Source: an uncultured Coriobacteriaceae bacterium
GTDB lineage: Bacteria; Actinomycetota; Coriobacteriia; Coriobacteriales; Atopobiaceae
Assembly: GCA_902795065.1 (NCBI GenBank)
Contig: CADBJR010000021.1
Location: 1-51,661 of the forward strand
Direction of reading: 5' to 3'
DNA length: 51,661 nt
A model generated the notes under the pieces. The model searched no databases. It was given only the letters and a program-made list of their open reading frames with translations, and was not told the origin of the DNA. Numbering within the stretch: the stretch's first letter is position 1; each line of letters begins with the position of its first letter. Positions 33,940 to 37,049 of the stretch are shown here, one piece after another. The position numbers were made by a program, and so were the translations under genes.

Positions 33940-35616
33940 CTATGCGAGCGTTCGGACGGTCTTCGCCACATTGACGAAGTGGTCGGCGACCCTCTCCGCG
34001 TCGGTCGAGAGCGAGAGGAACCGCGTGCTCTCCTCCGCCTTGCTGGAACCATCCGCAAGCCTGCGGATGTAGCTCTGCGCCATCTGCTCTGCCAAGGCGT
34101 TCACCTGCTCCTCGAGGGCGTACACCTGCTCGAGCTCGGAGTGCTCGCCATACAGGTACGCCTCGACGGTGTGCTGCGAGATCTCGTGGATGAGCGCTCC
34201 GATGCGCTCGATCTCCTCAATCTCCACGGGGGAGAAGCACTGGCCGATCCCATCGAGCGCCTCTGCGTATTCGACGATGTTCTTCGCATAATCGCCCACG
34301 CGCTCGAAGTCGGAGACCGAATGGATCGCCTTCGAGAGGTAGGTGTGGTCGGCCTCGCTGAGCTTGCCCTTCAGCAGCTTGGCGATGAATACCACGATGG
34401 CCCTGTTGAGGAAGTCGAGCTCGCCCTCGCGCTCGTAGAACAGCCGGCGCCCGCTGAAATCCATGCTCGTCGCCATGGAAAGCGATGCATCGAAGTTCTC
34501 GGTCGCGATCACCGCCATGTTCGCGATCTCGCTGCGGACCTGCGCGACGGCGATGGCGGGCGTCGCCAGCATGTTCTCATCGATGAAGTGCGTGCGGTAC
34601 GCCATCGCATCCGCCTGGTCGCTGTCGGGGATGATGCGGCAGACGAGCGCCACGACGGCCTCGGTGAACGGAAGCACCACGATGACGGCAACCACGTTGA
34701 AGACGGTATGGAACACCGCGAGCTGCGTCTGCGGCATTCCGGGGAACGCATCGTAGAAGATGGAGCCGAGCGAGACCGCCCCTGCCGTGAACAAGCGGAT
34801 GGCCAGGCCGATGAGCACGAACAGGACGACGCCGCCGATGTTGAAGAGCAGATGGATCGCCGCCGTCCGCTTGGCGTTGGTCCCGCTCGTGATGCTCGCG
34901 ATGATGGAGACGACGCATGAGCCGATGTTGGAGCCCATCGTGAGGAAGATGCCCTGATCGAGCGTGATGAGGCCGGCGACCAGCATCGTGATGGCGACCG
35001 ACGTCATGACCGACGAGCTCTGGATGATGGCGGTGAGGATGGCGCCGGTGAGGATGAGCAGGGCACCGTTCTCGATGGAGGCGAGGAAGGTCCTCACGCC
35101 CTCGAGCTGCGCGAATCCCTCCATGGAGCTGCTCATCTTCGAGAGGCCGACGAACAGCATGCCGAAGCCCGTCACGATGCCGCCGACCGTGCGCAGCGTG
35201 TCGCCCTTGGCCTTCTGGGCGAGCAGGGCGCCGAGGCACGTGAAGGCAGAGAAGATCACCGTCGTCGACAGGGCGTCCGCGCCGATCAGGCCGAGCGCCA
35301 CGATGTGCGCCGTGATGGTCGTGCCGATATTGGCGCCGAAGACGATCGTGGCCGCCTGCACGAGCGTCATGATGCCGGCGTTCACGAAGCCGATCACCAT
35401 GACGGTGGTCGCGCCGGAGCTCTGGATGGCGGCGGTGCCCAGCGCGCCGATGCCGACGCCGAGCAGCTTGCTGCGGGACGCGCTCGCGAACAGTGCGCGC
35501 AGCTTGTCGCTGCCGATCGATTCGAGGTTCTCGCTCATCATCTTGCAGGCGATGAGGAAGGTGCCGATGCCGGCGAGCAGGGACAACGCCGATGCGGCAG
35601 GGGAGAAGACGTCCAT
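33940..35616 (-). CDS. Na/Pi cotransporter (NptA/YjbB type) with PhoU domain
   Basis: 558-aa protein. Residues 1 to about 315 hold the duplicated Na/Pi-II transporter core, with the QSS signatures at 65-67 (AAIQSSGATT) and 199-202 (AIIQSSSVMT) and FGANIGTT / MGSNIGS. Residues about 340-550 are a PhoU-like helical domain with ISDFERVGDYAKN-type motifs (here SVSDFERVGDYAKNIV and STDAERVADHFVN). Related bacterial proteins move phosphate, and E. coli YjbB exports it. The ATG at 35616 follows AGGAGG. It is preceded by a Mn2+ riboswitch-like leader, unusual for this family, which suggests a link between manganese and phosphate flux. Confidence 0.92.
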   Translation of the reverse strand: MDVFSPAASALSLLAGIGTFLIACKMMSENLESIGSDKLRALFASASRSKLLGVGIGALGTAAIQSSGATTVMVIGFVNAGIMTLVQAATIVFGANIGTTITAHIVALGLIGADALSTTVIFSAFTCLGALLAQKAKGDTLRTVGGIVTGFGMLFVGLSKMSSSMEGFAQLEGVRTFLASIENGALLILTGAILTAIIQSSSVMTSVAITMLVAGLITLDQGIFLTMGSNIGSCVVSIIASITSGTNAKRTAAIHLLFNIGGVVLFVLIGLAIRLFTAGAVSLGSIFYDAFPGMPQTQLAVFHTVFNVVAVIVVLPFTEAVVALVCRIIPDSDQADAMAYRTHFIDENMLATPAIAVAQVRSEIANMAVIATENFDASLSMATSMDFSGRRLFYEREGELDFLNRAIVVFIAKLLKGKLSEADHTYLSKAIHSVSDFERVGDYAKNIVEYAEALDGIGQCFSPVEIEEIERIGALIHEISQHTVEAYLYGEHSELEQVYALEEQVNALAEQMAQSYIRRLADGSSKAEESTRFLSLSTDAERVADHFVNVAKTVRTLA

Positions 35617-35732
35617 CTCTGGCCTCCTGATCAGGTGTCTATGTGGTTATGGGAAAGGGGCGCTACGCGGGTAGCGCGGCAGGGGATGCGGGGGACTTGC
35701 GGGGCTGCTGCTCCTTCCAGTCGGTTTGCAGC

Positions 35733-35778
35733 AAAAAACGAGGCTTCTGCTGCAGGCTGTCGTGCGGCAAAAGTCTCG
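35733..35778 (-). terminator. Riboswitch-controlled terminator
   Basis: CGAGACTTTTGC (35767-35778) pairs with GCAGAAGCCTCG (35739-35750) over 12 positions with one A-C mismatch and one G-U pair, followed by six T (35733-35738). The 5' arm overlaps the aptamer's closing stem, so the two structures exclude each other. Confidence 0.82.
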
Positions 35779-35865
35779 CTTCTTAGAACATGCCCCGGGG
35801 ATCGGACGATCCCGTACTGACGATGGCATGCTACATACTCACGTATGCAAGCTACTCCCTTTTCG
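35733..35865 (-). promoter_or_regulatory. yybP-ykoY (Mn2+) riboswitch with terminator platform
   Basis: On the minus strand, 35865 to 35768 carries all hallmarks of the yybP-ykoY aptamer: AAAAGGGAGUAGC at the 5' side, a GCAUAC-GUGA-GUAUGU hairpin, a GCAUGCC/GGCAUGU stem enclosing CGUCA, ACG, a GGAUC-GUCC-GAUCC hairpin and CCGG, and at the 3' side GCGAGACUUUU. The closing stem pairs AAAAG with CUUUU; the common form is AAAGG with CCUUU, so this is a compensated change. The 3' strand is reused as the 5' arm of a terminator (35733-35778), so ligand binding should favour read-through. The gene controlled is the Na/Pi-PhoU transporter, 117 nt further on. Confidence 0.88.
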
Positions 35866-35892
35866 AGTAACAAGCTTACAGGAAAAGGGTCG

Positions 35893-35939: not shown

Positions 35940-37049
35940 CTAGAGCTGATCGCTGGGCCAGACCTGGAGCATGTAGTATGCCGTGAGCGAATACCATGCG
36001 TCGCCGGGCGGGCAGTAGCGTGCCGCCGCGGCGTAGGTGAGCGTGTAACCGTAGCCGTTGGCAAGGCCCGCGACATGCGCGCGGATGCTGCTGTCCCAGT
36101 CGGAGCCGAGATAGGCGAACCAGCCCCAGGCGTTGTAGGGCTCGAAGCAGTAGTAGCCCTTGGAGCTCTCGACGGCGGCGATGGCGGGCGACCAGCGCGG
36201 GTCGACGCCGTAATCCCATGCAGCCTCCGCGAAGGCGTAGCCGTAGCCAGAGAGCGGGGATCCGGCGAGGTAGTTGTCGATACGGCCGCTCCACACCTGG
36301 ACGAAGTAGTCGCGGGTGATGACGGAGGGGTCGGTGCTGACGGTTCCGGAATCTCCGCCGCCGGTTGCGCCGATATCCTCGCTGGGCGGGATCTCGATCG
36401 TCGCGGTGTTGCCGCTCGCGGTGGTGAACTCCTCGCCTGCATGCGCCTGCGCCTCGGCAAGTGCGTGCTCGCGCTCGAGGCGCTCCGCCTCCTGCTGGGC
36501 GAGGATGGCGGCCTGCAGGGCCTCGCGCGCCTCGATGGCCTCGTCGAGCGCCTGCTGCGCGGCGGCCTTCTCGGATTCGGCGAGCGCCAGATCCTCGGCG
36601 AGCTTCTGCCGCGTCGCCGTGAGCTCGGCGTCCAGGTCGATGAGGGCCTGGAGCTCGGCGTTGTTGCGCGTCTGGATGATGTCGAGGTACTGGATGGTGG
36701 CCAGCATGTCGTAGAAGTTCTCGGCCGAGAGGACCATCTCGATCAGGCCGGGGGCGTCGAGGGAGATGCGGTACTGCCAGCGGATCGAATCGCTCGTGCG
36801 CTGGCGCTGGTTGGGAAGCATGGCCTCGAGCTCGGCGATGCGGGCCTCGTTGGCCTCGATCTCGGCCTGGAGCTCCTCGATGTGCCTCACGCAGGTGTCA
36901 TACTCGTCGGAGCAGCGCACGACTTCGGCCTGAAGCTCCGCCATCGTCGCAGCATGGGCCGTCGCCGGGAAGGCGATCGACACAGCGAGCAATGCGGCTG
37001 AGAGCAGACAGGCTGCGAGCGCGCGTATATGTGGCTGGCGTTTCGCCAA
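35940..37049 (-). CDS. Secreted coiled-coil protein with lysozyme-like domain
   Basis: 369 aa from a TTG at 37049, chosen because GGAGGACGGAG lies just upstream and it starts a classic signal peptide (KRQPHIRALAACLLSAALL, cleavage near AHA 31-33); the frame is open to 37085. Residues about 36-220 form a long coiled coil like the N-terminal part of CwlO/PcsB wall hydrolases. After a Ser/Thr/Gly linker, the C-terminal 130 residues (YGVDPRWSPAIAAVESSKG, NAWGWFAYLGSDWDSSIRAHVAGL) resemble lysozyme-like or glucosaminidase-like domains; the Glu in AVESS is the candidate catalytic residue. Likely a peptidoglycan hydrolase held inactive by its coiled coil. Confidence 0.82.
   Translation of the reverse strand: MAKRQPHIRALAACLLSAALLAVSIAFPATAHAATMAELQAEVVRCSDEYDTCVRHIEELQAEIEANEARIAELEAMLPNQRQRTSDSIRWQYRISLDAPGLIEMVLSAENFYDMLATIQYLDIIQTRNNAELQALIDLDAELTATRQKLAEDLALAESEKAAAQQALDEAIEAREALQAAILAQQEAERLEREHALAEAQAHAGEEFTTASGNTATIEIPPSEDIGATGGGDSGTVSTDPSVITRDYFVQVWSGRIDNYLAGSPLSGYGYAFAEAAWDYGVDPRWSPAIAAVESSKGYYCFEPYNAWGWFAYLGSDWDSSIRAHVAGLANGYGYTLTYAAAARYCPPGDAWYSLTAYYMLQVWPSDQL

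Follow-up and report, generated by a model that had tools for sequence, protein, structure and literature searches.

The leader of a gene for a Na/Pi cotransporter-PhoU fusion protein, on the minus strand of the 51,661-nucleotide stretch of DNA analyzed here (the window), contains a yybP-ykoY-type aptamer which lacks helix P4 and is followed by an intrinsic terminator sharing a strand with its closing stem. We consider it quite probable that this RNA is a P4-less ON switch by which Mn2+ induces a dedicated paralogue of the Na/Pi-PhoU kind, the product of which would probably lower cytosolic phosphate or Mn-phosphate. The safest statement, taken from sequence, is that a Na/Pi-PhoU gene stands under a predicted ON switch of the Mn2+ type. 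The relevant features of the locus are as follows.

33940 to 35616, minus strand: gene for the Na/Pi cotransporter-PhoU fusion protein, 558 aa (PF02690, Na_Pi_cotrans, 148 bits; PF01895, PhoU, 77 bits)
35623 to 35628, minus strand: Shine-Dalgarno sequence AGGAGG, by direct reading
35733 to 35779, minus strand: intrinsic terminator (expression platform), with a stem at 35779-35739 (dG -16.7 kcal/mol) followed by UUUUUU at 35738-35733
35769 to 35863, minus strand: P4-less yybP-ykoY-type aptamer with P1, L1, P2, P3 and L3 and a three-way junction, from models R2 and R1 and covariation over 101 relatives
35780 to 35787, minus strand: 8-nt junction UCUAAGAA at the site of P4 in canonical members, from sequence and alignment
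35788 to 35831, minus strand: helix P3 with internal loop L3; both-side changes in 9 of 10 outer and 6 of 6 inner pairs
35814 to 35820, minus strand: L3 loop UCAGUAC, with an A at 35818
35853 to 35858, minus strand: L1 loop GGAGUA, within GGGAGUAGC

The leader lies between the start codon at 35616 and a gene ending at 35940, with the aptamer (35863-35769) situated 153 nt upstream of the Na/Pi-PhoU gene. The four blocks by which the first-pass annotation had recognized the aptamer all occur, correctly ordered, on the minus strand, namely GGGAGUAGC (35859-35851), CGUCA (35822-35818), CCGG (35798-35795) and GCGAGAC (35779-35773), and belong to foldable P1, P2 and P3 helices with covarying pairs. 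P1 is formed by AAAAG/CUUUU and P2 by UGCAUAC/GUAUGUA, while P3 comprises an outer arm, GCAUGCC-A-UCG paired with CGGGGCAUGU around a one-base bulge, and an inner arm, GGGAUC/GAUCCC. As had been proposed, the closing stem displays a compensated change, with AAAAG/CUUUU in the window as opposed to GAAGG/CCUUC in exporter leaders. P3 is followed by UCUAAGAA and then by GCGAGAC, and since P4 is absent the window RNA is a three-way-junction form; the L. lactis aptamer has four helices, P1-P4 (PMC9190785). On account of the 8-nt junction in place of P4, and of the existence of P4-less forms before exporter genes, we name it a P4-less variant rather than a standard member, which corrects the earlier reading, where the absence of P4 went unmentioned. 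The missing helix also implies that docking of the legs would differ from that in the solved structures. A mechanically called 80-aa ORF across the leader (35631-35873) was considered and rejected.

The UCA at 35820-35818 belongs to L3 and places a putative Mn-sensing adenosine immediately after UC. In the solved aptamers, Mn2+ is contacted by A41 (L. lactis) or A48 (X. oryzae), the L. lactis loop reading UCA(41)AUUC with contact through N7 (PMC6754395). The A at 35818 is the equivalent of these residues. L1 of the window aptamer carries the equivalent of the A-minor adenosine A10, the role of which has been described in the solved Mn2+ aptamer (PMC6754395).

Downstream of the aptamer core, GCGAGACUUUU, the 3' strand of P1, doubles as the 5' strand of the terminator stem, in agreement with the earlier proposal that a terminator reuses this strand. 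P1-overlapping terminators with a U-run were found in 10 of the 12 Na/Pi leaders tested, the exceptions being L253, with a hairpin devoid of a clear U-run, and L252, without a clear terminator. A scan for consensus promoters and terminators returned nothing; it demands an uninterrupted short-loop stem, and the terminator hairpin has internal mismatches. An ON logic through a terminator sharing P1 is that of the known class (PMC6754395, PMC9190785). Under such a mechanism, when Mn2+ is scarce the 3' half of P1 would pair downstream to form the terminator and keep the Na/Pi-PhoU gene off, while Mn2+ bound between L1 and L3 would hold P1 together, block the terminator and allow transcription. In Mn2+ excess, the paralogue would most likely export phosphate, alone or complexed with Mn, from the cytosol and so reduce the Mn-phosphate load.

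The domain scores listed above confirm the first-pass identification of the regulated gene. Further, the protein scores over the NF037997 cut-off, possesses two Na_Pi_cotrans repeats with intact QSSG (65) and QSSS (199) motifs, retains the ERVGD/ERVAD motifs of PhoU, and has its closest solved relatives in SLC34 (PDB). In the host genome, R1 matches a single place, which is the window. A second Na/Pi-PhoU paralogue (G000:C14:78455-80107; 53% identity) is aptamer-free; additionally, genome G002 has the aptamer-free paralogue only and G001 has neither Na/Pi-PhoU paralogue. This second copy and the pattern in G001 and G002 are the reasons why the aptamer-bearing gene looks like a specialized Na/Pi-PhoU paralogue. 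The host also has an MntP gene and a Na/Ca exchanger; a P4-less leader was looked for upstream of this MntP gene and none was found. The host genome thus shows no sign of its classical exporter being controlled by Mn, a point against the proposed Mn2+ switch.

These protein affinities bear on the direction of transport. A Mn2+ ON switch might conceivably drive phosphate import, with Mn2+ being stored or sequestered as Mn-phosphate or polyphosphate, as would fit a member of the Na/Pi symporter family (NF037997) whose animal relatives, SLC34, import phosphate. We regard this as somewhat unlikely, given that the bacterial Na/Pi relative YjbB exports phosphate in vivo, as described for Salmonella (PMC11389368), and that the other genes under the P4-less leader are mostly efflux or Na-gradient genes. 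By analogy with YjbB, export is the likelier direction for the window transporter.

The pairing of this aptamer type with Na/Pi-PhoU genes, for which the first-pass annotation had suggested a survey, occurs at 13 loci in three lineages, Coriobacteriales, Lachnospiraceae and Oscillospiraceae. Four divergent Na/Pi-PhoU subfamilies, with 32-40% identity between them, stand under the aptamer, indicating that this target is recurrent. Conservation of the leader within the genus, also expected earlier, held in two of the four other genomes (G003 and G004, 85-90% identity) and not in the remaining two. A DNA similarity search across the family found the leader within the genus only, and a phage collection gave no match to it. 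A protein search recovered Na/Pi-PhoU genes at 50-58% identity from many gut bacteria outside the genus, among which four Bacillota loci, L010, L022, L023 and L031, bear the aptamer; the idea of the leader as a local oddity was dropped upon finding these. A motif search detected no aptamer with the Bacteroidales Na/Pi-PhoU relatives. Surveys with R1 of 250 genomes from the Oscillospiraceae family and 250 from the Lachnospiraceae family yielded aptamer-bearing Na/Pi-PhoU genes at L222, L224, L227, L234, L242 and L279. These six compare with a chance expectation of 0.08 Na/Pi-PhoU genes downstream of 56 leaders, a figure which assumes three such genes per 2200-gene genome and treats the leaders as independent, which they are not; the separate subfamilies counted alone still exceed it. 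In the protein tree, the branch of L254 is very long and its placement unsure. In the Lachnospiraceae locus L031, the aptamer is situated between the promoter and the ribosome site, and the close relative L046 has similar sites without the aptamer-terminator cassette, so that the RNA resembles a self-contained cassette open to gain or loss. No report of Na/Pi-PhoU as a target of a Mn riboswitch was found in the literature searched, which did not cover the gene lists of two primary papers. Two points are new to our knowledge: that the P4-less form makes up a subclass which is common yet poorly annotated, and that Na/Pi-PhoU genes have been captured repeatedly.

Three surveys place most P4-less leaders before genes for P-type ATPases, Na/Ca exchangers and the OAD beta subunit, and few before MntP, CitMHS/ArsB-like and SPFH genes, the target classes having been assigned by regular expression so that the counts are lower bounds. 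In Clostridia and Coriobacteriia the form is found before P-type ATPases, MneA-like Na/Ca exchangers and MntP. An unexpected target is OAD_beta, the beta subunit of the Na+-pumping oxaloacetate decarboxylase, which accounts for at least 25 of 147 P4-less loci (including L131, L133, L134, L144-L148, L158, L161, L165, L170 and L179); it was not found as a target of a Mn-type aptamer in the literature searched. Other downstream genes encode CitMHS/ArsB-like carriers (L180, L233, L235, L238, L248, L277), SPFH/band-7 proteins (L120, L151, L171, L257, L280) and a Kup-like potassium transporter (L175). Within the same order as the host, the Coriobacteriia locus L111 has a divergent aptamer before a TerC-like gene, scoring 31 bits with R2 and 35 with R1.

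Such contexts raise the question of whether the yybP-ykoY fold might here be tuned to another divalent ion, such as Ca2+ or Mg2+, with the Na/Pi gene answering that ion, for instance through metal-phosphate precipitation. Sherlock and Breaker expect yybP variants for other divalents where gene contexts are odd (PMC7266159), and both the P4-less leaders before Na-linked genes with no known role in Mn export (OAD beta, CitMHS/ArsB-like, SPFH) and the missing P4 would be consistent with this proposal. It nevertheless appears unlikely, as the Mn-discriminating A and the C preceding it are present in 101 of 101 P4-less relatives and the L1/L3 core is identical in leaders of MntP, P-type ATPases and MneA-like exchangers, while in the solved class selectivity is relaxed by A48U or A41U (PMC6754395). 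Hence, the intact discriminator adenosine, as a sequence feature, speaks for Mn2+ as the probable ligand.

The first-pass annotation had proposed a covariance-model search with the Rfam yybP-ykoY model, and here its expectation failed: neither a gathering-threshold scan nor an E-value scan up to E 10 of the window gave a match to RF00080. The best Rfam match in the window is SSRC10 (RF02617), at 18.8 bits, under the SSRC10 gathering score. We attribute the RF00080 result to the sensitivity of that model, since it also misses sister leaders of P-type ATPases, Na/Ca exchangers and MntP. Clear yybP-ykoY leaders stand before P-type ATPases in other Coriobacteriia orders (L084-L106), and P4-less ones there include L097, before a P-type ATPase, and L112, before a Na/Ca-exchanger-like gene; among sister leaders, RF00080 gives 19.1 for L100 and 13.5 for L112 and leaves L084 unlisted. 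Two models were used for the P4-less form: R2, made from Coriobacteriia leaders of non-Na/Pi genes, mostly exporters, with P4 replaced by N, and R1, a mixed P4-less model which includes the window sequence. R2 matches the window at 35863-35769 with 71.7 bits and E 9.3e-17, the runner-up place in the window scoring 16.9 bits, and also matches a further six Na/Pi leaders, with E values between 1e-9 and 1e-16. As R2 contains no Na/Pi leaders, it points to yybP-ykoY membership independently both of the motif match and of the presence of the window in training. R1 scores the window aptamer at 91.9 bits. Further, in 391 clostridial genomes at E 1e-4, R1 matches 106 and RF00080 25, and none of the 391 reaches the RF00080 cut-off. 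The two models coincide at five or more places, providing a direct tie between the P4-less and RF00080 families. As an observation in its own right, RF00080 badly under-reports in Clostridia and Coriobacteriia.

The same fold is upheld by 101 P4-less relatives gathered with R1. In their alignment, which is fitted to R1 and thus leans towards the structure, 93.3% of cells are paired and 28 of 30 pairs show changes on both sides; the covariation value is 0.695 as against 0.196 for shuffled alignments (0 of 500), with slid versions at or below 0.126. An initial manual count over ten sequences already gives the same covariation picture; the early alignments were made by hand, with N for gaps and shortened loops, because MAFFT alone misplaced the P3 bulge. 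The L1 columns are near-invariant. Chance resemblance to an aptamer was therefore rejected: an ordinary terminator or attenuator, which would accord with the RF00080 non-match and with a minimum free energy fold of the whole window leader in the terminated form, is extremely improbable when set against the R2 match and the covarying, invariant core of 101 sequences, as well as the recurrence of the pairing in another phylum. Together, the independent models, the covariation, the invariant adenosine and the 13-locus recurrence lend support to the earlier assignment to the yybP-ykoY Mn2+-type class, to its predicted ON logic and to Na/Pi-PhoU as the target.

Should Mn2+ be what the switch responds to, Mn homeostasis in bacteria would come to include phosphate transport. 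The RNA leader has been acquired by four distinct Na/Pi-PhoU subfamilies, and in the host a regulated paralogue stands alongside an unregulated one; this pairing of switch and transporter in a gut Actinobacterium, recurring in unrelated gut bacteria, suggests a link between Mn stress and phosphate handling. As Rfam misses the common P4-less form, annotation of the Mn regulon in gut bacteria is probably incomplete. It is possible, though we put it forward tentatively, that a widespread P4-less Mn2+ subclass, nearly unseen by Rfam, couples Na+-linked transport to an excess of Mn2+, and that Na/Pi-PhoU genes have been recruited time and again to Mn stress, their products exporting phosphate or Mn-phosphate and so providing a new route of Mn detoxification.

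Comparisons with known systems place these observations in context. YjbB combines Na/Pi and PhoU regions in the same architecture as the window protein. Phosphate export has been reported for this Na/Pi co-transporter (PMC11389368), and no report of a Mn riboswitch for yjbB was found in the literature searched. The Na+-I riboswitch (DUF1646 motif) likewise controls Na-linked transporters, including oxaloacetate decarboxylase (PMC9337991); identity of the window RNA with it was rejected on account of its two-stem fold, its different consensus and the lack of an Rfam match to it in the window. The yybP-ykoY class itself (RF00080; L. lactis yoaB, X. oryzae, E. coli mntP) shares with the window L1 GGGAGUAGC, the invariant A of L3, P1.1/P1.2, P2, P3, GCGAGAC and a transcriptional ON platform acting through P1.1, whereas the window RNA lacks P4, falls below RF00080 reporting and has Na/Pi-PhoU rather than a Mn exporter as its target. 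Finally, the consensus of SSRC10 (Streptococcus sRNA 10) displays the same core of GGGAGUAGC, CGUCA, CCGG and GCGAGAC, again lacking P4 and including a terminator; its Rfam entry is that of an sRNA gene rather than of a riboswitch. Its match in the window covers 35735-35860, and it is the best Rfam match of an OAD_beta leader too (L144:1500-1615, 40.9 bits). Judging from this shared core, it may be that SSRC10 is in fact a riboswitch and its classification as an sRNA mistaken.
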